DNA from: a virus
Strand: one strand, 5' to 3'
Virus record (IMG/VR): IMGVR_UViG_3300024518_000371
Coordinates: 1-36,243 of that record
DNA length: 36,243 bases
How positions within the stretch are numbered: position 1 is the first letter of the stretch; each line of letters starts with the position of its first letter. Shown one piece after another: positions 652 to 33,795 of this stretch. The translations under genes and the position numbers were made by a program. The notes beneath the pieces were generated by a model. It saw nothing but the letters and a program-made list of their open reading frames with translations, was not told the origin of the DNA and made no database searches.

Positions 652-3600
652 TTATTTATTTTTGTTAGCTTCTATTTCTATTTTTTGCATTTTTAGTTCT
701 TCAGCAAGGGCTATTGAATCTTTTTTCTTTTTGTTTTTAGCTCTTGTATTCCTAGATTTTATTTTTCTTTTTTCTTTCTTAATAAAATCCTCTATATCTC
801 TTTCATCTTGCGTCAATTTAGATCTTCTATCTTTCTCCTTCATTTCCTTAAGAAGCTTTTCCTGCTTTCTTTTTTCTTTTCTTTCTTCTTCCTTACGTTC
901 TTTGTTTTCTGATTTAATTTTAAACTCTAGCATATCGTTTTCTTCGTTCTTAGCACCAACATTCCAGGTTTTCCAACCTAATGCTAAAGCTATTCTTTGC
1001 CATGCAGTGTTTCTAGAATCCAACGCCTCCGTAATGGAATTAACCTCGTCCACTACTCTAGCCATTGGTACATTAGTAAGGCCCTCTACAAGATTACCTG
1101 CGGAATTCCATCTTGGACTTAAATTAAATTTGCCGTCTATAGTAACATCCCAGCCCCTTTCGCTTATAACTTCTTTGTCGAATCTTTCACCTTTAGCAAA
1201 GTTTACAATTTTTCTAGCTTTAGATCCTACAGCAGGTGATACATTAAGCAAAGCTATAAGTGTTTTAGAATCATCTGCTAGGAATCCTCGATCTTTTTGC
1301 TTTTGATATTCTATTATAGCGTTCTTTAAAATAGATACAACTGCCCCAGGTAAACCAAAACCTCCTTTAAGAGTTGTGTCAACCATTGAATTTACAACCC
1401 CAAAAATCTTTTTCTCTGTTCTTTCCTCCATTGTTAGGCTGCCTTCCTCATCTTCGTCGTCGTTAAATCCTGGGATAAGAGCAAACATAGCCGCTTGAAG
1501 CGCAGAGAAAATAGCATTCTGTATAGTTCCGTAGTATATTATTTTGCTAAAGTTTGTAAAATCACTTTGAGCTTGAGTCATACCCGGCTCTCTTCTTCTA
1601 TTGTATATATTTTGAGCAGACTTCTTAATTGATCTATTTAATTGTATAGGCGTATTCATAAAGTTTAATACGATTCTACCTAAAGAGCTAGACTGATCAG
1701 AGGATATTAATGCTGGATCTCCTGATTGCTGTGTTTCATCTGAAATAGGAATAAAATCTTTAAAGGCCTTATCTTCTGCTTGCTTTCGCGTGTATTTAGG
1801 CTTGCCGTCTGCGTCCTTTTGGTTTAAGTAAGTGTTGACTCTATTTCTATAGAATGTAGCGCCACCCGCGGCTATGGCAAAACTATCCACCATTTGAGTA
1901 GGGGTAAATCCTATTTTAAGTAAATAGTTTAACGCGGCTGTGGCTTTGTCGGTAGCACCTGTAACCGCGCTAGCAAGTTCCGCTGCGTTAACGTCCGTCT
2001 TTAATCCTGACCTTCTTTGCTTTAGCTTAGGCGAATTAAATATCATTGCAAAATCAGTCCAATATTGCTTTTGGTCTGCAAATGCGGCGGCTGCTTTCAT
2101 AGGATTATTATCACTCCAGTTTATAAAGTTTACCGTAGATAGCAGTTGCAATAACGCGGATCTTCTATTAAAGAACATAATAGCTCCAATTGAATTGTTT
2201 AACCAATTGTTCCATATTTGCTCATTCTTTTTCATACCAGCAGCTCTGTTTACACCGTTTTTCATACGGTATAATATATCCTCAATAGCTTCTCTATGAG
2301 CTTTGCCGTAAATAGCTTCTATTTTGTTTAGGTTGTTTTCGCTAAATATTAGATCGGAATTGTCTATGAATTCTTTAAGGTATTCTTTTCTACCTGTTTT
2401 TTCTGTAAAGTTATTAATATCAGATAATATAGTTTGCACAGACCAATATTCAGACGGCTTAGACCATTCTTTTTTCTGAGCTACTTGAAGCGCTCCATTC
2501 GCGTAAGCCATTAACTGTGCGTCTCCCTGAACAAACCTAACAAGCTCTCTCTCTTGCTTTCTAGTAAGCCCTGGTATTTCATGCCCTGCTTTATTCCAAA
2601 GGTACACACGCAACGCCTGATCATGTGTATATGCCATGCCAGGTACTTTCTTACCTAACTTTTTTAATACGGGTTTGTATTGCTTATTTAGCGCTGCAAA
2701 TCCGTTCTTAAGAGATTGCTTTACTATATCTATTTCGTTTATTGCTCTCCAGTACGGAGTAACTAAAGCGTCTTGAAAAAACTTTTGATCAGCATCCCCT
2801 TGTCTTCCCCTACCAGCAAATGTGTATTCCGTTAAGCCTCTAAAATCATCAAGTGACGATGGCATCCAATATTTCCATCTGCCTTTGTTTCTACCTAGTA
2901 TTTCGCCTTCAACCCTAGTTAATCTTTTTCTAGATTTTATACCAGAGGCTCTTTCAAGCATGTCATTAAAGTTTTTATTTAACTGTCTGCTAAACTTAAC
3001 TCTAGATCTTTGTGTGGGTCCTTTAACATCAAACGTGTTAAGTATATCTCTTACAGCTTTAGGTTGATTTTTAAAATCTACTATAGACAATTCCGTTTGC
3101 CCTTTAACGCCTTTACCTTTAAGCGCTTTACCTACAGCTTTAACATTACCCATGTGATCGTCAGCAAAGTAAAAATCATTATAACCTTCGGCTATTTTGC
3201 CAACCATCCAGTCAGCTTTAGCTTTAGGTGATCCATTACCTAAGCCTGTAATGTTCTCTATAGGTATGTTTAAGCCTTCCGACTTTAAAAATTCATGTAT
3301 TGCTCTGGCTGAATTTGCCGGCCTTGCTGTTAAAACAAATATATCTTTATTAGTATACTTACCTTCTTTCTTTTGAGCTTCGCTAAATAGCGGGCCTAAC
3401 TCGCCCTTCATTACTTTACTAAATTCGCTGAAGTCAAACTCAGCGCCTTGCTCAAGCATAGCTTCGGACTTAGCGGCAAATTCAGCTGCGTTTAGCTTGC
3501 CTTGTTTTACAGCTACCGCAGATCCTTGTACGATTCCTTCATTACGTTGATTATAATCCGCAGATCCTATTAATTTTTTTGTGCTATTAAAAGGAATAAC

Positions 3601-6600
3601 AGCTTCTGCCATCAGACTCTTCTTGCCAGGATTATAACTAGGCCCCTCTTTATAAATTATGGAATCAAACCCTTCGCTTTTTAAGATGTTTAAATACTCT
3701 TTATTTCTTTCAGAAATAGATATATCTTTATTTTTAACAGTACTTTTAATGTCATTTAAAAGATCCTGGTAGGTCTTAAATTGCTTAGGATTATTAGCAG
3801 ATATAGATACAGCTGCAACTGTTCCCGTGTTATCTTTTCTGTTTCTATGATCTATAAAAGACTTTGCATTATCTAAACTTTTTGTATAATGCTTGCCCAG
3901 CCCTTGCATTTGAACACTAAATGAGGATGCTCCTTCTGGAAAATCTTTAACTATTTCTTTATTTACAAATTTTTGGTCTACTACCGCAGAGGTACCGTGA
4001 TAGTATACTTTTTCTTGGTTAGATAAATTACTAAATTCTTTTTCTGTAACTTTAGACGGGTTGCCAGGCATAACGTATAGCACATTACTTTTTGTTCGAG
4101 CTAGCGTGTCGTCGAAGTCGAATACACTAATGCCTTTAGGGTTCTTAGAAAATTTAATGCTCGCCGCGTTATTTATAGCTTTTTGCCCGTTAATATTTTT
4201 TGTGTATGTGGGACCGCTTAAGTTTTTTGAAAATTTGGAATAGTTTTTTACTATTTCATCAGCTTTAGCTTCATCTAAATCACTTAGCTCTTGCAAATCT
4301 AGTACATTATTTTTTGTAAACCCCGGGTGTAGGATAGTCATTCGATCGGTAAACATCCTTGTGTCCCCTGGATTTTTCTCTTTTAACGCTCCCGCTACAG
4401 GAAATGTTGATTGGCTAACCGCATCAATAGATTTAGCTATATCTTTTGGAAGTATTGTTATTTGGCTCTTATCAATAATACTTTGTACAGCTGCTTTTGA
4501 TACACCTCTGCCCATTATGTAATTAGACGCGGCAATTAGCAATTGCTTAGTAGGTGTACCGTGCTCAAATGTATAATCTTCTGCTGTTATCCCATCGCCT
4601 TTGTAAAAGGATCTAAGCTTTGCTAAAGTTTTAGCGGCGGTACGCATACTCTTTCCTTGAGAACCCATTATAATAGCAGCGGCTAAAGGGGTAACGCCGT
4701 CATTTTCTAAACTCACTAGCTTTTTAAGCTGCTCTACCATCTCCATAAATTGAATAGCACTTTTTTCGCTTAAGTCAAATCTATCTTTAAATTTAACGCC
4801 GTAACCTGTGCCGGCAATAAGTTTTCTAAAATCGGACGCATTGGCTTCCTGCACAAGCACGGAAGTAGTTTTAATTTTATTTTTGCTGTTTTTAGATTCT
4901 TTAGAGAAAAAAGTAAACCCTTTTCCATTTTTATTTTCTACGAGCTCTAATCCTGACTCTTTAATAGCAGCGTCTATTTTTGTATTTTCCTCTTGTAGTT
5001 TCTTGACAAAACTCATGAACCCTGCATTAGTGCCGTATATGCTTTGACCGGTACCCGTGGTTAAACCTGGCTGGAACATGCGTATAAAAGCGTTTACTCC
5101 CCCTACGTTGCCCTTGCTTTCTATGAGACTGAGAAAAAGATTTTTAAGGCCTAAATCAACTTCTATCTTTGCAGTTTCTGAAAGATTAGCAAAAGAAATA
5201 TCTTTAGCATTTTCGTTAAATATATTTGCTATATCCCCAGCCGCACTATCAACTACAGCGTTTAGGTAAGTTGTTAAATCTGTATTACCTGCATCATAAA
5301 ATTTTAAATATTGTTCTATTGACTTGTCGGTTACAGACTTGTTATTAAACATACCCATCACATGTAGGTCAACCAATCTTTGCCAAAGCGTATTTAATTC
5401 TGGATAATCCGCTCTTAATTCTTTTAATTTTTCTGGATTACTAAAATCTCCTTGTGCTAATTCATTTTTAAAATTAGCTTTTAAGTAACCAGTAAGGTCT
5501 TTACGAGCCTTTTCTAACGCACTATTTTTAGTACCAATACTAAACTTAACGTTACCTCTATCGGCATCGTTTTGTATTTGCTCTACTAAATTATCAGCAA
5601 TAACAGCACCCAGCATTTCTTGATTAGCTTCAAAGGCTTCGCTTATTTCACTAGCTGGATTTACTATTTCAGAAGTAAATATTTCAAATGAAATTTCTTC
5701 AGCCATAGCTTTAGCTAATGCTTCTTTTCTACCCCTTATAGGGTTACCAGTTTCGTCTAGAAATTGAGCTAAATAGGCGTCATCATCAATAACTTCGTCT
5801 ACATTCTTGTAATTGACTATGTTTGGATGTCTTCTTACAAGCGAAGCTCCTGACGTTCTACCTGCATCATCGGTGCTTGTTTTTTCCCTATCTATTTTTT
5901 TACCAACCCACGCTGGATATGAAACCCATTTACCGTCTACTTTCTTTTGTATTGCTTGAGGTATTCCACCTTGACCATCTTTACCCATTAACCAGGTTGT
6001 GGTCATGTTTTGTAACGTTGCCTTTTTAGTCCTAAGTAAAAACTTTCTAAGCTTACCGTCTTTCTTGCCACCCATAGCTGTTTTAAGATCTATATCGGCT
6101 TGCTTACCCATTTCAAATTGTATCTCTGCCATGAGCGGAGTTACAGTACGATTGTTAGATATAGCGGCATCCATTCTGGATTTTAAAGTACGAAGTACCG
6201 TTTTTAACTTAGCTTTTATAGCCTTTATTACTTCACCTGATACTACACCCGCGTCTGTTAAGCTTCTGTATTTAGGCTTTTCTTTTACTTCGTTTGAACT
6301 TTCTTCTGCTGTAATGTTCTTAGCCGCTGTTACGTCTTCCGTAAAAGCGTTTTCAGTCACTCTACCGGTCTTTAACGCACCTCTCATCCTATTACTTAGT
6401 TGAGCCATTGTATAGCCGAACAGGGAGTCGTTTTTAGCAGGGTCAAATTTCTTTATATAAGGTATAAGACTGGCTATGGTTTCGCTAACCATGTTATCCA
6501 TTTCAAACCCCGGAAGATTTGTAAGATTAACTATATTGTTACCTGCTGTTTTAAATGCTTTTGCTTTAGATCGGATCATTCCGTCTAACGTTTCGTATAT

Positions 6601-9600
6601 AACAGGGTCATTTGCGTCAAATCCTTCAGGATTATTACCTACAGCATCTAATTTCTTTTTAGATTTTGCGGTAACATCGCTTAATTTTTGCTCGTCTTTC
6701 TTAGATGCTTGAGGCGCGTCAATATCGGATTCTTTTTTAGCTTTGGGCTTAGCCTTAGGCTTTGCTTTAACCTCTACCTTAGGTGGATTTTCGATGTTCT
6801 CGTATTCCTCCTCGAGCTTTGCAATTCTTTTGTCATGGGTATCCTGATCTATAAAGCCTTGCATTAGCTCATCGCTTATTTCGCCAATCTCCTCGTCAAT
6901 AGCTTCCATTCTGTTTTCTTCCGCTTCGGTAAGCTTACGGCTAAGCTTCGTAGTACCTTCCTCTTCGTCATCAATAATGTTTAAGCTTTTGCCTTTTATA
7001 GCTTTTTTAGTCCAACTAGAAACAAACTGGAATATAGAGTTAGCATCGTCTAACTTAAAGTACATAGAGGCATCTCCATTTAAGAAACGCATTATAGAAT
7101 TTATGCCTGTTTTTATTTCATATACTTTATTATATGAGCTTTTTGGTAAAGCGCCTATGTTGGTTAAATCCGCTACTAGCTGTATCAGCTCGTCCGCATC
7201 TATCCCGTTGGTGTCAGTGTAATAGTCCTTCTTATACCCCTTTACTCTCTTGTTGAAAATATCAAAAACTTCTTTTGAAATAGTGCCAGCTTCTCTTAGC
7301 GCCGTAACCTCAGCTATTATGCCCTCCACCATTTTTTTGCCATCGCCTACAACCCTGTCGTTTTTAATAATACCCGCGTTTCGGGTTTGTATATGCCCAA
7401 GTTCATGAAGAGGGGACATGGCGGCAATTCTACCGTTATATCTATCTTGTGTAAGAGCACTTGCTATTATGTTTTCTTTAAATAAGACTATCTCATTAGA
7501 GGTTTTGCCTTGAACGGTTGGGTTTGCCGCGTTACTCCTGTCTGCGTATCCTTTTCTAAGGCTATTTTTTTCTTCTTCGTTAAACTTGTCTTTTTCGTTG
7601 CCTTTCTCGTCTTCGACTTTTTGATTAACATATTCTTCTAATTGCTCAGCACTATTAATTTCAGTAGAGTTTACATTGTCTTGTCCTTTAATTATGTTTT
7701 TTGAGTAAAAATATAGTTCCACGTTTGCGGCAGCTTCTACTTTATTGCCTGGGCCGTCTATATCTTTAAGAATATCTTGAATTTCCTGATCTTTTTTGTC
7801 AAATACGGATTCTCTTTCTCCTTTTATTCTTGTTAACTCCTCGTTTAGCCTATCCATCTCTTTATTAGACCAGCTACTCACGTCTCCGGAAGCTCCTAGC
7901 GCAGCAGCTTCTTTTTCTAATAATCTTATTTCTCTATTAGCCTCGGTTATGGCTTCAAATTCCTGGGGAGTTAAATCATTAATTTTTAATACGATGTTTG
8001 TATTTTCTAAAGCTAATTCTTTTAATGCTACTTTTCTTCTTTTTTCTAGAATGCTTTTGGCATCCGCGGTTAGCTGACCAGAATTCAATTCTTTTTGTAT
8101 CTCTAGTATTTCTGTTCTAAGCTTAGCTTCTTTTTTTGCTTCCCTAGAATTTCTAAACTCGCTAGCAATTGCTGAGTATATATTTTGACTAGCCATAGGT
8201 CCCCCTATAGCGAAACTAGTAATCATAGTGTTTGCCGCAAAGTCTTTGTCTAATCCTTCGAATAAATTTTTATCTTCGCCAAGTATAACTATATCTGAAA
8301 AATTCTGCCCAACTAAAGTAAACCCTTCCTCTAAATATTCAATACCGCCTCCTATGCCAACGGCTGTAGTAGCACCAACGGTTTTTGACAAGGCTCTAGC
8401 CATACTTCTGTTCATTACTTGTCTAAACTGATTGTAACCTATTGCTCTGGAGTATTTTTGAAAGTTATTTATAAACCCTAATGTACCAAATCTTTCAGCA
8501 ATAGAGGCAGTACCTCCATAAACCAAGCTGCTAAAAGACTTTTGCACTTGTGACATATTAAGCAAATCCTCTTGATCTGCTAATATTTTTTTTAGTTCGC
8601 TTATTTCCGTGGGATCGTCTGTTTCTAGCAGCGCTTGTGTTATTTCTTCTTTTATTTTCGCGGCTTCTCTTTGAGCTATTTCTAGGTTTGCCATTTGCCC
8701 TCCTGCTTCCATGGTGAAGAATACACTAGTTGCTATATTAGTTGTACCCTTGTTCCAAGCGGCTGCAGTCATGGCAGTACCTAAGTTTTGCACTCCAGAT
8801 TTACCGGCTGCTTTAGTCAAGGCTGACCTTACAACATTTTTGGCTACCATTCTACCGCCAATATTAACTAAGCCAGCGCTTCCGCTAGTTGCTAAAGCTA
8901 CTAATATAGAGGGTGAGTTGTCTACCATCACCATACCTAAGTAATCAGATGTGCTTAATCCCTTATTATCCAGCGAAGCTCTAAACAACTTTTCTTCATT
9001 TCTAGCTTGTAGCCTTTGATTGTAATCTATAGCAGCACCTTTGTCCGCTACAAGATCCCCATACCATTGTGATTCAAGTATTCTTTGCTCAGCTAAATCA
9101 GCGTTAATGTCATTAGAAGAATATGCCCTAGCAATAGCGATAGGCACGTCTCCTAATAAAAACTTTTTAGTGGAAGCCCCTAACATAGCGCCGCTGCCTA
9201 AAAAAGAATTCTCCATAACCATGGCCATTCTATCGTCAAGCTCATAGGTTTTATATGCTGCTTCTTGCGCTATTTTAAATTTACTTAATTGCCCTGCTCT
9301 TTTTGTTATTCTATCAGACTCCGCCATCATTACCTGACGTTGTTGATCTAAATTATTCCATTCGGCAGACATAGCGGCATTACCCTCTCTGAAAGTTTTA
9401 GCGTATTGATTTTGTAAAAGCTGTCTATATTCAGGATCGTCTGTATTATTGAAGTTTTCTTCAATATTACCAAGCAAGTAATCGTAGTCTGCTTTAATTT
9501 CTTCTAATGGAGCGGCTCCTCTTTCAGTGTAATCATTAAGCTGCTGATCTAGCTTTTTGTACCTTTCTTGTATTTCCGCTTCCGAACTTGCTTGATATTC

Positions 9601-10764
9601 TTTTAGTGCGTTGTTTAATCGTTCTTCTGAAGCCTCTTCATTGTAAGGAATGTATGTTCTACCTTGTATAGTTTCTTTAGAAGTTAACGGACGTCCAAAC
9701 TTAGCTTCAAAATCAGCGTTGTCTTTTTTCCTAATAGCATCTTCTCTTCTATTTTTTTGTACTATTTCTAAAGCTTCGAGATTTCCTTCATTAGCTTCAA
9801 CCTCTGCGGCTAGCTTAAATTGCTCGTTTTCAGGAATATCATTGTTTATCATGTAGTTAGAAGAAGCTTCTTTCTTTTGCTTCATAACCACATCGATAAT
9901 TTTGTTTTCATCAATTTCAGACAAATCCATATACTTATGTATATTTTCTTTTGTCAATTCCTCATTTACCGAATTTGCCTTTTCTTGAATACGTTTCCAT
10001 GAGTTATATTTTGCTTCCCCTAAATAATTTTTTAAATCATCTTCATAGGAATTAACAAATATAGCTTTGTCTCCTTCCATATAATACGGACTGCCCTCTA
10101 CGTCATTTGGATTATCAGGCACGAAGTTGCCAGACTCATCTTTAGAAACGCGATACGTAGGCATATCAACTTTCAAGCTATAGTCTTTCTTCCTATCTCT
10201 CCATTGGGTTGTAAGGTTAAATTCTGATATTCCTACTTCATTTTTAACCGCGGGAGATTTTCGGGTTACATTATCTATATCCCTACTAAGAGCCTCCGCT
10301 TGCGGACTTGGCAATTCCGGCTGCTCGTATTTTGTTTGTATCGGTGCATTATATAGCTTTGCATATTCTTCAAAAGTTTCAGGGTACAACTGTCCATTAG
10401 AGCTTTCTTTTCCTGCAAAATCTCTTTTGTATAAATCGCTTCTAACTTCTTGTCCTCCTTTGAATTTTATATACTCTATTTTTTTAGGCTTTCTTTCTAA
10501 GTCACCTTCAAATTCAATTTTTACGGGCTGTTCTTGTTCCTCCAATGAACCATTTTCCAAGTTGGAATCCCCATTTGATGCTTGACTTGTCTCCGGAGTT
10601 ACAGACGCATCGGTCTCCGCATCTCCGTTCTGAAAATTTTCAGTAGGTGGTGTTTCTTCAACGAGTACCGCGCCTGGGTATTTAGCTAAAAAGATTTCTA
10701 TATTTTCCTCTTTAACATTTTTAAACCCTACATCGCCGTTTATAATTACTTTATATCTAGGCAT
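652..10764 (-). CDS. Giant polyvalent virion/ejection protein, 3370 aa (zincin-like, HAD with nested ART-like domain)
   Basis: This is the largest gene here. Landmarks in order: acidic N-terminus; helical region; Gly/Ala-rich membrane-prone segments near 520-545, 612-640 and 790-812; zincin motif HELGH at 1120-1124 with a possible third ligand E1192; (AKPK)n linker near 1335; sigma-region-2-like stretch around F1440; HAD motif I DFDDT at 2216-2220; ART-like segment with H2256, Y2293 and E2387; HAD motif II T2479 (VLTARP) and motif IV D2535/D2536 (FADDH). It ends with a conserved-looking C-terminal region, hydrophobic near 2855-2880 and 3070-3095, and a K/E-rich tail from about 3275. I find no cysteine in the whole protein. 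Its size, helical content and position after two internal virion proteins suggest a protein stored in the capsid and ejected with DNA. Such multi-enzyme giants are known in phages as polyvalent proteins. None of the activities is proven. Confidence 0.9.
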   Translation of the reverse strand: MPRYKVIINGDVGFKNVKEENIEIFLAKYPGAVLVEETPPTENFQNGDAETDASVTPETSQASNGDSNLENGSLEEQEQPVKIEFEGDLERKPKKIEYIKFKGGQEVRSDLYKRDFAGKESSNGQLYPETFEEYAKLYNAPIQTKYEQPELPSPQAEALSRDIDNVTRKSPAVKNEVGISEFNLTTQWRDRKKDYSLKVDMPTYRVSKDESGNFVPDNPNDVEGSPYYMEGDKAIFVNSYEDDLKNYLGEAKYNSWKRIQEKANSVNEELTKENIHKYMDLSEIDENKIIDVVMKQKKEASSNYMINNDIPENEQFKLAAEVEANEGNLEALEIVQKNRREDAIRKKDNADFEAKFGRPLTSKETIQGRTYIPYNEEASEERLNNALKEYQASSEAEIQERYKKLDQQLNDYTERGAAPLEEIKADYDYLLGNIEENFNNTDDPEYRQLLQNQYAKTFREGNAAMSAEWNNLDQQRQVMMAESDRITKRAGQLSKFKIAQEAAYKTYELDDRMAMVMENSFLGSGAMLGASTKKFLLGDVPIAIARAYSSNDINADLAEQRILESQWYGDLVADKGAAIDYNQRLQARNEEKLFRASLDNKGLSTSDYLGMVMVDNSPSILVALATSGSAGLVNIGGRMVAKNVVRSALTKAAGKSGVQNLGTAMTAAAWNKGTTNIATSVFFTMEAGGQMANLEIAQREAAKIKEEITQALLETDDPTEISELKKILADQEDLLNMSQVQKSFSSLVYGGTASIAERFGTLGFINNFQKYSRAIGYNQFRQVMNRSMARALSKTVGATTAVGIGGGIEYLEEGFTLVGQNFSDIVILGEDKNLFEGLDKDFAANTMITSFAIGGPMASQNIYSAIASEFRNSREAKKEAKLRTEILEIQKELNSGQLTADAKSILEKRRKVALKELALENTNIVLKINDLTPQEFEAITEANREIRLLEKEAAALGASGDVSSWSNKEMDRLNEELTRIKGERESVFDKKDQEIQDILKDIDGPGNKVEAAANVELYFYSKNIIKGQDNVNSTEINSAEQLEEYVNQKVEDEKGNEKDKFNEEEKNSLRKGYADRSNAANPTVQGKTSNEIVLFKENIIASALTQDRYNGRIAAMSPLHELGHIQTRNAGIIKNDRVVGDGKKMVEGIIAEVTALREAGTISKEVFDIFNKRVKGYKKDYYTDTNGIDADELIQLVADLTNIGALPKSSYNKVYEIKTGINSIMRFLNGDASMYFKLDDANSIFQFVSSWTKKAIKGKSLNIIDDEEEGTTKLSRKLTEAEENRMEAIDEEIGEISDELMQGFIDQDTHDKRIAKLEEEYENIENPPKVEVKAKPKAKPKAKKESDIDAPQASKKDEQKLSDVTAKSKKKLDAVGNNPEGFDANDPVIYETLDGMIRSKAKAFKTAGNNIVNLTNLPGFEMDNMVSETIASLIPYIKKFDPAKNDSLFGYTMAQLSNRMRGALKTGRVTENAFTEDVTAAKNITAEESSNEVKEKPKYRSLTDAGVVSGEVIKAIKAKLKTVLRTLKSRMDAAISNNRTVTPLMAEIQFEMGKQADIDLKTAMGGKKDGKLRKFLLRTKKATLQNMTTTWLMGKDGQGGIPQAIQKKVDGKWVSYPAWVGKKIDREKTSTDDAGRTSGASLVRRHPNIVNYKNVDEVIDDDAYLAQFLDETGNPIRGRKEALAKAMAEEISFEIFTSEIVNPASEISEAFEANQEMLGAVIADNLVEQIQNDADRGNVKFSIGTKNSALEKARKDLTGYLKANFKNELAQGDFSNPEKLKELRADYPELNTLWQRLVDLHVMGMFNNKSVTDKSIEQYLKFYDAGNTDLTTYLNAVVDSAAGDIANIFNENAKDISFANLSETAKIEVDLGLKNLFLSLIESKGNVGGVNAFIRMFQPGLTTGTGQSIYGTNAGFMSFVKKLQEENTKIDAAIKESGLELVENKNGKGFTFFSKESKNSKNKIKTTSVLVQEANASDFRKLIAGTGYGVKFKDRFDLSEKSAIQFMEMVEQLKKLVSLENDGVTPLAAAIIMGSQGKSMRTAAKTLAKLRSFYKGDGITAEDYTFEHGTPTKQLLIAASNYIMGRGVSKAAVQSIIDKSQITILPKDIAKSIDAVSQSTFPVAGALKEKNPGDTRMFTDRMTILHPGFTKNNVLDLQELSDLDEAKADEIVKNYSKFSKNLSGPTYTKNINGQKAINNAASIKFSKNPKGISVFDFDDTLARTKSNVLYVMPGNPSKVTEKEFSNLSNQEKVYYHGTSAVVDQKFVNKEIVKDFPEGASSFSVQMQGLGKHYTKSLDNAKSFIDHRNRKDNTGTVAAVSISANNPKQFKTYQDLLNDIKSTVKNKDISISERNKEYLNILKSEGFDSIIYKEGPSYNPGKKSLMAEAVIPFNSTKKLIGSADYNQRNEGIVQGSAVAVKQGKLNAAEFAAKSEAMLEQGAEFDFSEFSKVMKGELGPLFSEAQKKEGKYTNKDIFVLTARPANSARAIHEFLKSEGLNIPIENITGLGNGSPKAKADWMVGKIAEGYNDFYFADDHMGNVKAVGKALKGKGVKGQTELSIVDFKNQPKAVRDILNTFDVKGPTQRSRVKFSRQLNKNFNDMLERASGIKSRKRLTRVEGEILGRNKGRWKYWMPSSLDDFRGLTEYTFAGRGRQGDADQKFFQDALVTPYWRAINEIDIVKQSLKNGFAALNKQYKPVLKKLGKKVPGMAYTHDQALRVYLWNKAGHEIPGLTRKQERELVRFVQGDAQLMAYANGALQVAQKKEWSKPSEYWSVQTILSDINNFTEKTGRKEYLKEFIDNSDLIFSENNLNKIEAIYGKAHREAIEDILYRMKNGVNRAAGMKKNEQIWNNWLNNSIGAIMFFNRRSALLQLLSTVNFINWSDNNPMKAAAAFADQKQYWTDFAMIFNSPKLKQRRSGLKTDVNAAELASAVTGATDKATAALNYLLKIGFTPTQMVDSFAIAAGGATFYRNRVNTYLNQKDADGKPKYTRKQAEDKAFKDFIPISDETQQSGDPALISSDQSSSLGRIVLNFMNTPIQLNRSIKKSAQNIYNRRREPGMTQAQSDFTNFSKIIYYGTIQNAIFSALQAAMFALIPGFNDDEDEEGSLTMEERTEKKIFGVVNSMVDTTLKGGFGLPGAVVSILKNAIIEYQKQKDRGFLADDSKTLIALLNVSPAVGSKARKIVNFAKGERFDKEVISERGWDVTIDGKFNLSPRWNSAGNLVEGLTNVPMARVVDEVNSITEALDSRNTAWQRIALALGWKTWNVGAKNEENDMLEFKIKSENKERKEEERKEKRKQEKLLKEMKEKDRRSKLTQDERDIEDFIKKEKRKIKSRNTRAKNKKKKDSIALAEELKMQKIEIEANKNK

Positions 10765-14562: not shown

Positions 14563-17500
14563 TTACGGAGTTGAGCAATTCGGGTCTGCTTGATTTTTTA
14601 CCGTAAATACTGTCTGAGGAGGAACCGTTATAACGCTAGGATTACCTATACCTTGTACGTTAAACTCCTTGGTGTCTACATTAGTATTACAAGAACTTAC
14701 ATAAAAAGTATCCATGCCTTTTATGTAATTAAACTTCTTACCTTCTTTGTCTATAAATTCTTTTATTTGCCCTTCTTGTAAGTCCGTTACTATAGAATTC
14801 ACATACCAGCCTTTTGTTTCTACAGAAGTATTAGGTGTTAAACCCTCCGCTTGTATCTGGGCTAGTGTATAAAGTCTTTCGCTGCCATTTAGTTTATACA
14901 AAAATTCTTTAGCATCGGTACCGCTGTAATTTAGTGTTTTATAACCTTTAACTACTGACGGCATCTCATTAAGGATAGTATTAAAAGAACTTTCATAATA
15001 GGGACCAACCAAAGCTGTGCCCGGTCCTACACCATAAAAAGTATTATACTCCGTGTTTAATCCATGCTCCCATATTCTACCATTTTTAAATGTGTAGTAT
15101 ATATTATTAAGGTAAGCAGCCGCCTCCGGTATATATGCTTTTCTTGAAGTAAACCCATTAACTTCCTCTTTGAAAGAAATTGTTGTGCTAGTCGTAGGTA
15201 ATGTATTTATAAACTGATTACACAGAGGGTCTCTATTCAATCTATCAAATTCTCCTGCACCTAAAGTTTGCTGCCAATAAGGCGTTAAAGATACTAGTGT
15301 TATATTATAATTTCTTTTTCCAACATCCCACGATCCCAGTATTTTAGTGTTGATCGATAGGTTATCTGAAAAGAACGAGTGCATACCATAATCGGATAGA
15401 TCAGTAATTCCATCACCTGAAAGTCTAAGCACTGCTCCTTTGTTCGCATCAGTATAATACATTCTAAAGCCAAACTCGGCGAATGATTCGGGATTAGTAG
15501 CTATACCAAATTCCCCTTGGAATGTTAATGTCTGCCCTAGCACTTCTGCATTAGAAGTTAAGTTAGTGCTCCCGTCAGCGTTAAATAAGGCGTCTTTCTT
15601 GGCCAATATCTTCATTGACTTGTTTTCGCACAAGGTAATTAAATCGGTGTCTCTGGTGTGTAATTTCTGTATGCTGCCGTACTCAGGATTTACATCCTTT
15701 GTGATATTCTCTGCTTGTATAAACTGGTTAAGATTATTTGTACTTGAAGCAGAATTAAATATTTGAGAAAATATAAGGCCCGTAGATCTTCTTTCTTCTT
15801 CGTACGGCTCATCTAGCGTAGCAGATGCTTTCACACCATCTCCTATTACAGGCTGGTTAAAGTCGTCTCTAATGCGATCTGACTCAACTCCGTTACCAAA
15901 TGAGTAACAGTTAAACCAACTTAAGTTCTGAAGTTGACCAAATTGACTTATAGGATAAATATCTGGGGTTTCAAAATATATATCTAACTCAGCTGCTTCT
16001 TTAGGTTCTGTTTCAAATATAGCAGGGCTAGAGCTAGAAAAAGTATCATCATTTGGGTCTGATGCTAAAAACTCTATACCCACGTATGCAAGTGGATTAG
16101 TAAAATTATATGCTGGGCTGCTGCCTCCAATAATATTTTCAAGGGCGTCAGATGGATTCCACGCAAGCGCCGTTGAACCGCCTTCAAGCTGTTCAAAAGT
16201 AAGGGTCCACCTTGCGTATTGGTTTGTCTGCGCGTCCCAAGCATCATTTCCTGAAAAAGCGCCTGAGTTATTAGTACAGTCATAAGTAGTTCCAAGATCA
16301 AGCTGGCTATTGGTTACAACATAAACAGTCTCAGTGGGATCTTTTACGCCGTTGCCAATATCTACAAACCTAAACATAGTTCCTACTGTATTAAGCTGTT
16401 CCAGTAATCGAGGATTCCTGTCTACTATACCGTGAGCATGCCCATTGGTAGTGTTAGTTCTTCCGGCTCCGTACCCGGTTGCATCGGATATAACAATTTT
16501 ACCCTCAACATTTGTACCCTGTCCCCTGCTTTCGCATTTAGGACTAAATCTATCAATAAATATCCTACCTGTTTGGCCTGTTGCATCAACCTGCGGCCAA
16601 GTTCCTCCTTCTTTCCAAAAGTTGCTGTTAAATTGACTAGCAAAACTAAAGTTCCAAAGCGGGGCGATAGCTTTTCTAATAAACGTATTGTTATTATTTC
16701 TAGCCGCTTGTATTTTTTGCCTTAATATATTGTCTGAGTTTACTTTAACAAAAAACCTTCCGGTAAATTCAGCTTTCTTAACGTCTGTTAAATCATATAG
16801 TGTTACTCCCGTGCCCTCTGGAACTTCTCCGTTAGAAACTGTAGCAAAATTTACATCTGGACCGAATGCAGGCGAAACTACCATTCTAACGAATGCTTGC
16901 GTCCCGTTAAGCGAAAAAGTAGATATTTTGTAATAATCACTCACTTGACCCGCTGTACCTGTTATTCTTAATTGTAAACCAGATTCAGTACGAGTTTCTG
17001 CTCCAAAAGCAGCGTCAAAGTCAGTTTTAAGGACTTGCACTTCGTTACCCCCTTCTACCGGCGTAGCTCCTTCCCCACCGCCAAAGTTGGTAATAAGATT
17101 TCCTTTGCCTAGTCTTTGTTGCGTTAAAAACAAAGGGGCTTCGTTTTCTATAGCTATCACTTTATATCTGCTTTTTTCAAAAACAGGTATATTGTTATCG
17201 TGTTCTTTTTTTAGTATCAGAAAAGTATCTTCGTCTACTTTATTTCTTTCTGCGGACGGAAATGAAAGCCATACATTACCATCTTCTGCATCATAAAACC
17301 TATCTAACGCTAGATTGTAATATTCTCTTGACGTTTCTTTTATGTAATACTTGTAATGTGTAAAATCAGCAAAGCCAGTTAAAGTTTTATATTTAGGTGG
17401 GTTGCCATTTAGGGTCACTCTTATGTTATTAGCCGCAGCAGAAGATGCCTTCTCTACTACTAATGAAGCGCTATTACTTGTAAATACAGGCGTGTTTCTG

Positions 17501-19113
17501 CCATACTCATCCATATAAACTACACCTATTTGATAAGTGCGTAATGTTTTAATTGAAGGAAAAACAGCATTACCTTCCGTATTGACGCTGCCTACAAAGG
17601 TAGTGTCGGAGGATATTGGTTTCGAATATAATCCTACAGACATATCTGTCTTGTAAGGCACTTTTGTAAAAGGCGAGCTTAACGTAAAATTTTGCACGTA
17701 ATTGCCGTATATCAACCTATTAGCAGTTATTTCCTGCGCTAAAGTTCTACGTGGTACATTGTCGTAAGGTCTTAATAACTGATTACTTCTTATGACAGAA
17801 GTTATTATTTCAGTTTTTATTTCAAAAGTATTGTTTTGCCATGCTGTATCAGAAGGTTTGAAGCTATCAACAACGTATACATTAGGATTATTAGTTGCTT
17901 TGTAAAGCACTTCAACTTCGCTTACATCGGGTGGTAATGTGCTAGGTATAAAATTAGATATTGTTAACTGCCTAGTATTATTAGTCATGCCTAAGTTATA
18001 CCCTTCTTTAGGAGAGTAATCAAATTCCCCAGGCAAAAAAGCAATATTTGAAAAAGAAGAGTAAGCAGATACTTGATTATTATTGTATTTCCATCTAGTA
18101 GCAAATCTAGCAAACTTAAATTCAAATAAAGGCTCTTGTTGTTCTAATATTACATTATAAGTTAAGGGGGTAATAATAGCACCCCCTGTAGTACTCGGCC
18201 CAACACTTAGCACTGTAACATTAGCCCCTGTTTGCGAAGCTCCTTCGTCAGGGGGTATTATACTAGCCACAGAACACCTTACTTCTGCAACTTCGCTACC
18301 TACTTCACCCTCATCTACAAGAGTTAGTATAAGTACATCTCCTTCTCTATAAAAAGGTAATGTTTGGCTTTGCTCCCAGGTTAATGTTTTTGCCGTGCCC
18401 GTAGGAACTGGAATTGCATTATTATTAGAATCCTCAGTCATAAAGGTGGCTGACGTAGTAGTGGCAATAACAACGGTATTTCCTGCGTCGTCTTCTCTAG
18501 CAACCGAGGACACGGATATTGTCGGCGGGTTTAACGGATACTTTTTTATTACCGTAGTATCTTGCTCAATAAAATCACGCCCATATACTTGCGAGTGCGT
18601 TAAAAAATCCGAGGTTGAATTAACCCAATCTTTTACGGTTATACTTTTGGGCTCAGTCTGGTTGTCTGTCCACATTAGTATACCTTCTAATATGTTTACA
18701 CCGGTTATTAAATAATCTTTGCTAAAGCTTAGTATATCATTAGCATCGACTATTAATGGAGCTACAACTTTTGTAACGTCGTTATAGTAAGCAATAGCAC
18801 TAACTTCATCACTAGATATAAACCAATATATATTATCCGTATTCCTATCAACAACGGAGCCTATGCAGACCGCATTTGTTAAATTAGATATATAAGCACT
18901 GCTCCACAGTGTTCTAGCTCCCGTAACGGGGTTATATGTTTTGTACGCTAATTCTAAGTTACCTTTTATGTTTTGAAAGGTACCAACCTGAGAGCTATCT
19001 GAAGCTGCAAGCTCTAAATTTAAGGCGTCTCTGTATTCTCCATTGGGAACAAGTCTCTCATCAAGATCCTTATTCATTTTACCGCTGGTAAACGTGTGTA
19101 TTAATTCCGCCAT
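14563..19113 (-). CDS. Large tail hub/nozzle (muzzle-like) protein, 1516 aa
   Basis: The N-terminus reads MAELIHTFTSGKMNKDLDER, followed by LVPNGEYRDALN. This 'NKDLDERLVPNGEYRDA' signature is characteristic of long tail proteins of marine and crAss-like short-tailed phages, often annotated as stabilisation or muzzle proteins. The remainder is strand-rich with Trp/Tyr-aromatic repeats (for example NIYWFISSDEVSAIAYYND). That suggests a beta-propeller core followed by beta-sandwich regions. It ends ADPNCSTP. It follows the two ring/adaptor proteins by 6 nt, as expected for the next layer of a short tail. It contains at least nine cysteines, in contrast to the internal proteins. The structural role is well supported by signature and position; the exact layer is inferred. 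Confidence 0.85.
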   Translation of the reverse strand: MAELIHTFTSGKMNKDLDERLVPNGEYRDALNLELAASDSSQVGTFQNIKGNLELAYKTYNPVTGARTLWSSAYISNLTNAVCIGSVVDRNTDNIYWFISSDEVSAIAYYNDVTKVVAPLIVDANDILSFSKDYLITGVNILEGILMWTDNQTEPKSITVKDWVNSTSDFLTHSQVYGRDFIEQDTTVIKKYPLNPPTISVSSVAREDDAGNTVVIATTTSATFMTEDSNNNAIPVPTGTAKTLTWEQSQTLPFYREGDVLILTLVDEGEVGSEVAEVRCSVASIIPPDEGASQTGANVTVLSVGPSTTGGAIITPLTYNVILEQQEPLFEFKFARFATRWKYNNNQVSAYSSFSNIAFLPGEFDYSPKEGYNLGMTNNTRQLTISNFIPSTLPPDVSEVEVLYKATNNPNVYVVDSFKPSDTAWQNNTFEIKTEIITSVIRSNQLLRPYDNVPRRTLAQEITANRLIYGNYVQNFTLSSPFTKVPYKTDMSVGLYSKPISSDTTFVGSVNTEGNAVFPSIKTLRTYQIGVVYMDEYGRNTPVFTSNSASLVVEKASSAAANNIRVTLNGNPPKYKTLTGFADFTHYKYYIKETSREYYNLALDRFYDAEDGNVWLSFPSAERNKVDEDTFLILKKEHDNNIPVFEKSRYKVIAIENEAPLFLTQQRLGKGNLITNFGGGEGATPVEGGNEVQVLKTDFDAAFGAETRTESGLQLRITGTAGQVSDYYKISTFSLNGTQAFVRMVVSPAFGPDVNFATVSNGEVPEGTGVTLYDLTDVKKAEFTGRFFVKVNSDNILRQKIQAARNNNNTFIRKAIAPLWNFSFASQFNSNFWKEGGTWPQVDATGQTGRIFIDRFSPKCESRGQGTNVEGKIVISDATGYGAGRTNTTNGHAHGIVDRNPRLLEQLNTVGTMFRFVDIGNGVKDPTETVYVVTNSQLDLGTTYDCTNNSGAFSGNDAWDAQTNQYARWTLTFEQLEGGSTALAWNPSDALENIIGGSSPAYNFTNPLAYVGIEFLASDPNDDTFSSSSPAIFETEPKEAAELDIYFETPDIYPISQFGQLQNLSWFNCYSFGNGVESDRIRDDFNQPVIGDGVKASATLDEPYEEERRSTGLIFSQIFNSASSTNNLNQFIQAENITKDVNPEYGSIQKLHTRDTDLITLCENKSMKILAKKDALFNADGSTNLTSNAEVLGQTLTFQGEFGIATNPESFAEFGFRMYYTDANKGAVLRLSGDGITDLSDYGMHSFFSDNLSINTKILGSWDVGKRNYNITLVSLTPYWQQTLGAGEFDRLNRDPLCNQFINTLPTTSTTISFKEEVNGFTSRKAYIPEAAAYLNNIYYTFKNGRIWEHGLNTEYNTFYGVGPGTALVGPYYESSFNTILNEMPSVVKGYKTLNYSGTDAKEFLYKLNGSERLYTLAQIQAEGLTPNTSVETKGWYVNSIVTDLQEGQIKEFIDKEGKKFNYIKGMDTFYVSSCNTNVDTKEFNVQGIGNPSVITVPPQTVFTVKNQADPNCSTP

Positions 19114-29175: not shown

Positions 29176-29450
29176 TACTTAGATCTTTTTTCAGCAAAGC
29201 CTTTGAAGTCTTTTTTTTCAGCTTCTTCTTTTGGCTTACCATCTAAAGCTCTTTGCTCGTCATTAATACGATTTAGGATTTCGAAAGCATCGAATATAGC
29301 TAGCTTTTTTGTAGCCGCTGCATTCTTAAGCCTGTCTGCTGATATGTCGTCGTCTGAATCCACGATAGCTTCTTTAGCTACCTTTATTAATTCTTCAACT
29401 GCTTTCTGCCCAGCTAGGATTATATTCCTCTTCGTTTCCTTTATGTCCAT
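29175..29450 (-). CDS. Small protein before terminase, candidate terminase small subunit, 91 aa
   Basis: This is a helical protein: KRNIILAGQKAVEELIKVAK, an acidic DSDDD linker, LKNAAATKKLAIFDAFEILN, then a charged tail ending FKGFAEKRSK. It has no recognised DNA-binding motif. Its position immediately upstream of terL, with a TAATG stop-start overlap, is where small terminase subunits usually lie. Small terminases are typically helical and form rings that recognise phage DNA. The start at 29450 has the AATTATGG context common in this window but lies 56 nt inside the preceding gene. The function is inference from position. Confidence 0.7.
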   Translation of the reverse strand: MDIKETKRNIILAGQKAVEELIKVAKEAIVDSDDDISADRLKNAAATKKLAIFDAFEILNRINDEQRALDGKPKEEAEKKDFKGFAEKRSK

Positions 29451-29988
29451 AATTGATTGTAATTGAATTGGTGGGTACTCGGTATAACCTCTGCCCTTCT
29501 ATAATAAACTCGTATTCTGATGTAGGTACAAATCCTACTATATTATCTACTTCTAAGCCGCAAGTACAATATTTAACCACGCCTATCAGTGGCTTTTCTT
29601 TTTCAATAGAAAACATTTTAGTTTCCTTGATTGGGGCAACAAAACAAAAACCTTCTAAAGCTTTCCATTCGCCGTCTCTTTTGTATGCGTATATCTGATC
29701 CGGCTGTGCCAAATAAGTTTCTTCTGTTAAATAGCTTTTACTATTTTTTTCTTCACCTCTTACATCTCTGAATCTTCTAAACACATTGTGATGTAATATT
29801 ACTTCATCTCCTTCTCTAAGTTCTTGGTATTTTTTAGCTAATGGTAAACTTAGTATAACCCCTATTCTATTTGAATACTCGTGGTTTTGTAACTCAGTGT
29901 TTAATAGTAATTCTTGTCCTTCAATTGTAGTCTGTCCTGTCGTTCTGCCTCCTTGTGGTGTTACAAGGTAATTAAATACACTTTGCAT
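29395..29988 (-). CDS. Protein with two GroES-like domains, 197 aa
   Basis: The first unit (about residues 20-105) has GQELLLNTELQNHEYSNRIG and then REGDEVILHHN, followed by SYLTEETYLAQPDQIYAY. The second (about 112-180) follows the GroES layout closely: EGFCFVAPIKE (first strand), EKPLIGVVKYCTCG, NIVGFVPTSEYEFIIEGQRL and YRVPTNSITI (last strand). These match the GroES order of strand, loop, 'G-V-V' strand, 'V-G/D-x-V' strand and terminal strand. The protein is therefore probably a co-chaperonin-fold protein, about twice GroES length. It lies about 3.6 kb from the groEL-groES pair. Whether it caps a chaperonin or has a virion role is unknown. A CTCG motif could bind metal. It overlaps the next gene by 56 nt. 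Confidence 0.72.
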   Translation of the reverse strand: MQSVFNYLVTPQGGRTTGQTTIEGQELLLNTELQNHEYSNRIGVILSLPLAKKYQELREGDEVILHHNVFRRFRDVRGEEKNSKSYLTEETYLAQPDQIYAYKRDGEWKALEGFCFVAPIKETKMFSIEKEKPLIGVVKYCTCGLEVDNIVGFVPTSEYEFIIEGQRLYRVPTNSITINYGHKGNEEEYNPSWAESS

Positions 29989-33541: not shown

Positions 33542-33795
33542 TCGACTAGCACTATATCATTTATAGTAATAACATGATACATCTTGTCATTCCATTCTAT
33601 CCCGTGACCCGCGTGTTTGTCATACCTAACAACACTACCTTCTTTTATATAATCAACCTTATCACCAGCGCTTATAACCTCGGCTTTTAAGTACCTAATG
33701 TCTGTGTTCTGTGTTTCAGTTAATTCTAGGCCAGCAACCGTTTTCGGTGCTTCCTTTATCTTATCTATAACGATGTAGTAATTAATTGCCTTCAA
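33538..33795 (-). CDS. groES: GroES co-chaperonin, 85 aa, TTG start
   Basis: GroES caps GroEL and closes the folding chamber. The sequence has the expected parts: N-terminal strand (NYYIVIDKIKEA), mobile loop (KTVAGLELTETQN, aligning with the GroES loop 'KSAGGIVLTGSA'), LKAEVISAGD, and terminal HVITINDIVLVE. The only usable start in this frame is TTG at 33795-33793; the nearest upstream in-frame codon is a TAA at 33804-33802, and there is no ATG before residue 72. It overlaps the end of groEL by 14 nt, so initiation is probably coupled to GroEL termination. It ends with an ATGA overlap with the wHTH-like gene. The order is groEL then groES, opposite to the usual bacterial operon. Confidence 0.9.
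   Translation of the reverse strand: MKAINYYIVIDKIKEAPKTVAGLELTETQNTDIRYLKAEVISAGDKVDYIKEGSVVRYDKHAGHGIEWNDKMYHVITINDIVLVE

Follow-up and report, generated by a model that had tools for sequence, protein, structure and literature searches.

The window analysed here, a 36,243-nucleotide stretch of the IMG/VR virus record IMGVR_UViG_3300024518_000371, encodes on its minus strand a giant protein of 3,370 amino acids (652..10764) in which motifs I and II of a HAD-like phosphatase domain stand about 260 residues apart. What fills this gap, and does it work together with the domain that it interrupts? A first-pass annotation of the letters alone had proposed an ADP-ribosyltransferase (ART)-like domain nested in the HAD fold, and the motifs and residues that it quoted are all where it placed them. 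The reading frame is uninterrupted, and a named relative, MW202828, carries a 3,859-residue gene at the matching place. As far as the window shows, the ORF lies at the downstream end of a structural gene block that encodes terminase, portal and virion structural proteins. Large, multidomain (a HAD domain, an ART-like domain and a HELGH motif) and encoded with virion genes, the product shows the traits of polyvalent proteins and is a probable virion-associated member of that type, probably carried in the virion of a flavobacterial podovirus. No family was listed when the whole 3,370-residue protein was searched against Pfam, PHROG and NCBIfam, and short pieces were needed; its C-terminal 770 residues matched nothing among 50,697 phage records. 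The giant protein of MW202828 contains none of the HAD motif patterns, and a HAD profile picks up no more than a scrap of it, residues 1318-1380 (2.2 bits; E = 0.0049 when this one protein was searched); it may harbour a diverged HAD.

The HAD domain is encoded in two parts, both on the minus strand. The N-terminal part (residues 2208-2234; 4063..4143) contains motif I (DFDDT at 2216, with D2216/D2218 on strand 1) and the first flap strand, VLYVMP (2228-2233), and the C-terminal part (residues 2425-2550; 3115..3492) contains motif II (VLTARP at 2477, T2479), K2516 as the likely motif III lysine and motif IV (FADD at 2533, D2535/D2536). Superfamily motifs I (DxD), II (T), III (K) and IV (DD) are all present, and the columns of D2216/D2218, the motif I threonine, T2479, K2516 and D2535/D2536 are invariant in alignment A1 (31 of 31 rows). 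The proposal that these motifs meet in space was borne out: AlphaFold assembles both halves into one HAD fold (mostly pLDDT 73-93 per ten-residue block), and VIA-align, applied as a second look at Foldseek's 1000 chains, lists mostly HAD proteins for this model, with Z up to 10.5 for HAD phosphatases (r.m.s.d. 4.2, 137 aligned, to 3qgm). Searched by Foldseek alone, this first model had no match at E <= 0.001, and other Rossmann-like, non-HAD proteins ranked first. Profile matches are weak for the Pfam HAD models (PF12710, best E = 0.0069 over 24 rows, 12 of which matched; 13.5 bits against a cut-off of 27 in one row with scores displayed), and DUF2608 reaches E = 2e-6 at best over 24 rows; the best PHROG match of the HAD part is to one named polynucleotide kinase (E = 0.0029). 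PDB sequence searches with the HAD, ART and kinase parts gave no meaningful match. The 50,697 phage records, from which records very near that of the window may have been excluded, yielded no isolate with this HAD, and two uninterrupted HADs used as queries had no match there. On its motifs and predicted fold, the domain is phosphatase-like.

The spacing between motifs I and II was marked in two ways. By the first it is 260 residues in the records L001-L003 and 75-77 in the 37 uninterrupted domains among the first 45 relatives; by the second it is 262 and, in the 254 uninterrupted ones of the 317 distinct homologous regions listed, 77-80. This puts the unusual distance beyond chance. About 184 residues are extra. 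In the AlphaFold model they are flanked by the flap strands 2228-2233 and 2419-2424 (block pLDDT 79 and 73), so that the insert lies between the two HAD flap strands, the place described for C0 and C1 caps in the sections of PMC12632274 that deal with them. DNA identity delimits the cassette to residues ~2235-2424 (3493..4062, minus strand), with ends known to about ten residues; the second flap strand, VKQGKL (2419-2424), falls within its last residues. Compared with L003 in 30-base steps, the window has 24-30 identical bases inside the cassette and 11-24 outside. The same insert is found in the window and in the IMG/VR records L001 (identical to the window in the HAD/insert region), L002 and L003, and is absent from L004, whose HAD C-terminal part is 97% identical in protein. 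At E up to 1 the insert matched none of the 50,697 phage records, a set that possibly excludes records very near the window's.

The ART-like domain itself spans residues 2251-2403 (3556..4014, minus strand) and contains YYHGT at 2254 (H2256), GLGKHYT at 2288 (Y2293, preceded by H2292), FDSIIYKEG at 2366 and EAVIPF at 2387. A first AlphaFold job was uninformative for this part (pLDDT 26-45 per block), as L003 was the sole other row covering it. Modelled with distant relatives in an alignment of 16 rows, of which the distant ART-B group supplied 13, the insert gave a mean pLDDT of 71.5 and a pTM of 0.68; five ART models ranged from 54 to 71.5 in mean pLDDT. VIA-align returned known ART-fold proteins in 49 of the 50 rows listed (Z 5.8-6.9), the remaining row having the top Z of 7.7, which is below the level that the tool calls safe. 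With Foldseek the best PDB match was at E = 2.5e-3, with acetyltransferases among the lower rows, and four of 26 viral fold matches at E <= 0.001 were named PolyVal ARTs. The predicted fold thus resembles that of an ADP-ribosyltransferase, as first proposed, while no ART profile matched the insert above its curated cut-off. The suggested kinship with polyvalent-protein ARTs fared similarly: PF18760 (ART-PolyVal) is the best Pfam match of the ART piece alone (E = 0.0039), but at 18.4 bits against a cut-off of 31.2; it was not listed for a 411-residue piece and found no match at E up to 10 in a six-frame search of the records of the window, L002 and L003. We therefore regard the insert as related to PF18760 but not filed as a member.

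The catalytic layout was annotated as H-Y-E. In the relevant parts of PMC5512222, polyvalent ARTs have a histidine in strand 1, a tyrosine in strand 2 and an aspartate in strand 5. H2256 matches the strand-1 histidine of the Tox-ART-HYD2/PF18760 pattern. The other two positions depend on the alignment: the second ART-B position lies nearest Y2293 in one and H2292 in another, and the ART-B aspartate aligns to N2393 in the window (D in L003), six residues after E2387, so that either E2387 or N2393 is the candidate third residue. H2256, H2292, Y2293 and E2387 are conserved in all three rows of the window's type of insert (ART-A), which are 93-98% identical. Matched as profiles with hhalign, ART-A and ART-B resemble each other weakly (E = 0.023, probability 2%). 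The module in the window's phage is probably NAD-using.

Homologues with and without the insertion, whose comparison had been suggested at the outset, were both found: among the 317 distinct regions listed, 254 have no insert and 63 are interrupted, all at one and the same point of the HAD. The interrupted slots hold a zeta/PNK-like P-loop kinase (44), ART-B (six), ART-A (three), an unnamed module (two) or short insertions (eight). In the kinase-bearing relatives L015 and L024, PF06414 and PF13671 score above their cut-offs, and a kinase-bearing query matched eight of the 50,697 phage records, within its kinase part. All 63 interrupted copies keep the HAD residues D, D, T and DD, the motif I aspartates being forced by the search pattern and the T and DD not, and the motif III lysine context is likewise present in all 63. 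The motif II-IV distance is equal in 317 of 317 regions, under a pattern that permitted only 30-75 residues and with loci fetched by similarity to the HAD C-terminal part or the whole domain. Not counted in the 317 are L247 and fifteen loci whose slot could not be read (the HAD is absent, truncated or frameshifted, or the locus is the window's reverse copy); of the truncated ones, L131 and L132 have ART-B in the slot. Insert-bearing loci made up 8/45, 2/80, 15/80 (plus one unreadable), 15/80 and 2/7 of the loci listed in successive scans and 26/80 (plus one unreadable) of the best 80 in a scan seeded from the kinase-bearing clade; these frequencies are not prevalences, as contigs recur between scans, two further scans were seeded with inserts and the larger ones give the best 80 of 544-559.

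The cassettes and their surroundings have different histories. Between the window and L003, DNA identity is 93% in the insert versus 65% in the HAD core, and dS is 0.22 in the insert and saturated in the HAD; the corresponding dS values are 0.026 versus 0.52 for window and L002, and 0.67 versus 1.32 for the ART-B pair L012/L134. By these comparisons, the cassette is younger than its surroundings. Its dN of 0.041 against a dS of 0.22 (window and L003) indicates purifying selection on the insert. On a HAD tree the slot content must have changed at least 24 times, although the tree is a quick one with 106 of 312 inner branches below 80. ART-A accounts for three changes in three rows (starred branches force two) and ART-B for six in six (four forced), where three changes on the tree can also be explained as one gain and two losses; the kinase copies are clustered, with six changes in 44 rows. 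Taken together, the sequence comparisons show that cassettes have been exchanged between diverged HADs.

The explanation that we prefer, with a probability of roughly 60%, is that the HAD flap hairpin, at the C1-cap site, is a tolerated and reused insertion point for exchangeable modules; the slot looks like a socket. The giant protein would be packaged into virions and delivered upon infection, ejection being suggested by gene position, and the HAD would retain a constant phosphatase job across relatives. The module would be carried on the hairpin because its two ends come close together there and leave the fold unbroken, and would act as an additional effector, exchanged by recombination under arms-race selection.

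A less probable but possible alternative sees the module as a genuine working cap that covers the HAD active site and whose activity is coupled to the phosphatase. A kinase would then pair with the phosphatase as in polynucleotide kinase-phosphatase, and an ART and the phosphatase would work on a common target or on an ADP-ribose product. The C1-cap position of the insert, the HAD residues retained in every interrupted copy, the polynucleotide kinase named by PHROG and the stable kinase-HAD pairing favour this view, and the kinase clustering is predicted better by functional pairing than by a neutral slot, as far as the tree can tell. However, most of the regions listed do without an insert, the same site accommodates unrelated modules, ART-B is also found outside this HAD, replacing it or elsewhere (L136-L142), and two of the six slot ART-B copies (L127 and L191) lack the strand-1 histidine. 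We advance only tentatively a broader version, in which the flap would be a general socket for swapped catalytic caps (ART, kinase and others) on a constant phosphatase core, giving bifunctional enzymes whose second activity would work with the phosphatase against a shared host target, with recombination in the conserved HAD flanks moving caps between distant phages.

The histidine missing from those two copies and the uncertain third catalytic position would also suit an insert of ART fold that does no catalysis and serves as a spacer or for binding, leaving the HAD as the sole active part; the purifying selection on the insert and the four residues shared by the three ART-A rows, close as these rows are, make this unlikely. 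An assembly chimera or a chance resemblance of motifs is very improbable and was rejected: although every ART-A copy comes from metagenome-type contigs, the same insert and junction recur in three IMG/VR records whose metagenome numbers differ, in one of which the HAD C-terminal part is just 57% identical in protein, the frame is open across 3,370 codons and many further contigs carry other module types at the same site.

In P-type ATPases, too, motifs I and II of a HAD-type domain are separated by an inserted nucleotide-binding domain. The likeness lies in a large nucleotide-using domain within the HAD core, and the folds matched by the HAD part include CopA (2b8e; Z 8.6, r.m.s.d. 3.0, 113 aligned); no sequence or pathway relation was seen, and here the host is a phage protein and the module is not conserved. 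The usual picture of module swapping in phage effectors and toxins places it at the ends of chains or along tandem arrays of domains. In the reading that we prefer, exchange takes place inside another enzyme's fold, with several unrelated modules at one hairpin and traces of exchange at the DNA level. The natural series of the same HAD with an ART, with a kinase and empty offers a test of the cap as an independent enzyme and of what the phage gains, and the slot is an insertion site already tried by evolution, of use for protein engineering.

The nested HAD-ART belongs as a variant to two known kinds, polyvalent proteins and HAD caps. With the polyvalent-protein ARTs, as far as treated in the relevant parts of PMC5512222, it shares a large phage protein, the strand-1 histidine and the ART fold, and it differs in being nested in a HAD, scoring under the Pfam cut-off and having E or N, not a clear D, as the candidate third residue. 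Like the C1 caps in the corresponding parts of PMC12632274 and PMC7822558, it lies between the flap strands and between motifs I and II; here, in contrast, members of a single family differ in which of several unrelated, whole enzyme-like domains occupies the site, an exchange that those parts do not describe for C1 caps. We found no ART or kinase nested in a HAD in the literature, which is no proof of absence from print; such nesting is not described in the portions consulted of PMC5512222, PMC9503650, PMC7824862, PMC11654794, PMC7822558 and PMC12632274, where the word 'nested' is absent from those of PMC9503650 and PMC7824862 and 'inserted' from that of PMC5512222. The kinase-bearing relatives, for their part, recall polynucleotide kinase-phosphatase (PMC7824862, in part) and the polyvalent zeta-type kinases (PMC5512222, in part) in joining a P-loop kinase and a HAD phosphatase in one chain, but their kinase is nested within the HAD, whereas that of the phage PKN-HAD proteins described in the former is fused on the N-terminal side.

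The giant protein (3,370 residues; nt 652–10764, minus strand) carries HAD motif I from residue 2216, the motif II threonine at residue 2479, a likely motif III lysine at residue 2516 and motif IV at D2535/D2536; YYHGT (residue 2254), GLGKHYT (residue 2288) and EAVIPF (residue 2387) lie between motifs I and II. From these motifs, all of whose positions were confirmed in the translated protein, the first-pass annotation had proposed an ADP-ribosyltransferase (ART)-like domain nested in a HAD-like phosphatase. Sequence comparison with relatives settles that the ART-like stretch is an insertion between the HAD halves, since relatives without it have motifs I and II 75–77 residues apart. Homologues of both kinds were found: among 45 loci with relatives of the HAD stretch in a first IMG/VR scan, 37 showed this short spacing and three (L001, identical to the window in the HAD region, L002 and L003) a spacing of 260 residues, and five held other kinds of insert. 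The cleanest comparison is locus L004, with HAD parts 95–97% identical in protein to the window and no insert.

The HAD domain of the giant protein is real as judged by modelling. An AlphaFold model from a 31-row alignment joins the two halves (block pLDDT mostly 73–93) and VIA-align matches it to the HAD phosphatase 3qgm (Z = 10.5, r.m.s.d. 4.2, 137 aligned) and a CopA domain (Z = 8.6), bearing out the expectation that the HAD motifs come together in one domain. Foldseek by itself gave no significant match for this model. Pfam HAD models gave weak matches in 12 of 24 rows (best E = 0.0069), and DUF2608 matched 18 of 24 (best E = 2e-6). The insert is flanked by strands VLYVMP (residues 2228–2233) and VKQGKL (residues 2419–2424), which, taken with an excerpt of PMC7822558, place it at the C1-cap position. 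Further scans, the larger ones each covering the best 80 of 544–559 matches, brought the set to 398 loci with a readable slot (the point between motifs I and II), representing 317 distinct regions. The motif II threonine and motif IV DD are present in every region, including the 63 interrupted ones, and the motif II–IV distance is constant throughout under a search pattern that allowed only 30–75 residues. Directly after motif IV the window has 27 extra residues (∼2542–2568) relative to L003 and L012; these also occur in L002 and, by the HAD alignment A1, in L004, L006 and L009.

The insert most likely adopts an ART fold, according to its predicted structure. It was modelled alone with AlphaFold from an alignment (A9) with 15 relatives, mixing the window-type group (ART-A) and a second, distant ART-like group (ART-B); the model had a mean pLDDT of 71.5 and a pTM of 0.68, the weakest stretch being residues 10–31 of the piece, and the other four models had mean pLDDT values of 54 to 63. 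ART-fold proteins made up 49 of the 50 VIA-align entries listed (Z = 5.8–6.9), among them MbcT and NatT, both of which we take to be ART folds, diphtheria-type toxins, ParT, PARP1 and PARP2. The top entry was a cyanophage A4 pre-ejectosome protein (residues 1421–1603; Z = 7.7, r.m.s.d. 4.5, 120 aligned), the title of which names no ART. Foldseek against viral models gave 26 matches with E ≤ 0.001, four of them named PolyVal ARTs and 20 in models of more than 700 residues. Counting against the assignment are the Z scores below 8, a best PDB E value of 2.5e-3 with Foldseek and the weak joining of the two A9 groups by direct profile comparison. The best Pfam match of the insert taken alone, PF18760 (ART-PolyVal; E = 0.0039), scored 18.4 bits against a cut-off of 31.2; this family was not seen in a Pfam scan of a longer piece around the insert, nor in a six-frame search of the window's record. 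The same search found ART-B in six of 19 records and gave matches in two of 14 control genomes, none over the cut-off in either set. As for the proposed H-Y-E pattern, the strand-1 histidine is clear, but Y2293 competes with H2292 for the second position and E2387 with N2393 for the third, depending on the alignment. The polyvalent-protein ART group is described with H, Y and D in an excerpt of PMC5512222.

Across the 317 regions, the slot has no insert in 254, a P-loop kinase in 44, short insertions in eight, ART-B in six, ART-A in three and an unnamed module in two; these counts are not prevalences, as inserts served as queries in some of the scans. The kinase of L015 exceeds the Pfam cut-offs (AAA_33, 46.1 bits; Zeta_toxin, 43 bits), and ART-B resembles ART-PolyVal with a score under the cut-off. 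ART-B also occurs without a window-type HAD in other giant proteins (L136–L142), directly before the segment that elsewhere follows the HAD (L136–L138, L140 and L142) or placed elsewhere (L139 and L141). The unnamed mobile module (∼150 residues), in the slot of L301 and L314, recurs in these giant proteins outside it (L116, L334, L193 and L018); the L314 copy weakly matches DUF6934 (E = 2.3e-4, under the cut-off). Contigs L328–L334, which carry the HAD, were binned into metagenome-assembled genomes labelled Woesearchaeota, Aliivibrio, Bacteroidetes, Ilumatobacteraceae and Flavobacteriaceae; they are probably phage contigs, some of them misbinned.

Slot cassettes move between HADs, as their nucleotide divergence indicates. 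Between the window and L003, DNA identity is 93% in the insert, 56% and 60% in the flanking stretches and 65% in the HAD core alone; in 30-base steps, 24–30 bases are identical inside the insert and 11–24 outside, the change coinciding with both insert ends. For this pair, synonymous divergence (dS) has reached saturation in the HAD, against 0.22 in the insert; the insert and HAD values are 0.026 and 0.52 for the window and L002, and 0.67 and 1.32 for the ART-B loci L012 and L134. The case for exchange rests on this divergence, since change counts on a tree fit repeated loss as well as repeated gain. A quick tree of 315 HAD domains, built without the slot, has many weak branches; on it, slot content changes at least 24 times with short insertions counted: three times for three ART-A rows (starred branches force two) and six times for six ART-B rows (starred branches force four), whereas the kinase is more stable (six changes for 44 rows). 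The insert has a dN of 0.041 against the dS of 0.22 between the window and L003, and is thus maintained by selection.

We propose that the HAD core would keep one phosphatase-type task across these phages and that its flap hairpin would accept whole domains, because a domain with adjacent ends fits there and leaves the fold unbroken. Modules would move in and out by recombination in the conserved flanks, the favoured one depending on the host, and that of the window would be an NAD-using effector delivered together with the HAD. A bolder reading is that the module caps the HAD or shares its target; such coupling would fit the preserved HAD residues and the stable kinase pairing, but the 254 regions without an insert speak for a loose one, as does the loss of the strand-1 histidine, replaced by asparagine, in two of the six slot ART-B copies (L127 and L191). 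These two modules are probably inactive or altered ARTs retained in the slot.

The window also encodes a terminase, portal, virion structural proteins and GroES-like (29395–29988; PHROG E = 4.7e-15) and GroEL-like (33782–35389; PHROG E = 2.3e-138) chaperonins, and gene order suggests that the giant protein is packaged in the virion. The host probably belongs to the Flavobacteriia, since the terminase matches, 87 among 50,697 phage records, are mostly to phages named for Flavobacterium (68) and Cellulophaga (15), with two for Tenacibaculum and one for Maribacter; identity is 63.7% to MW202828 and below 60% for the remainder. At the equivalent position MW202828 has a 3,859-residue gene, in the product of which no HAD motifs were recognizable. 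This syntenic gene (MW202828.1, 741–12320; L247) bears the annotation of a reticulocyte binding/rhoptry protein, which is probably mistaken, and its product has two HEFGH motifs. A connection with crAss-like phages is hinted at by a 1,516-residue structural protein of the window (14563–19113), which has a weak match (E = 0.026) to PF25729, the C-terminal domain of the crassvirus muzzle. The window's giant protein has a HELGH zinc-peptidase-type motif (7393–7407, residues 1120–1124) with a weak Zincin_1 match (E = 0.058), a possible further enzyme domain.
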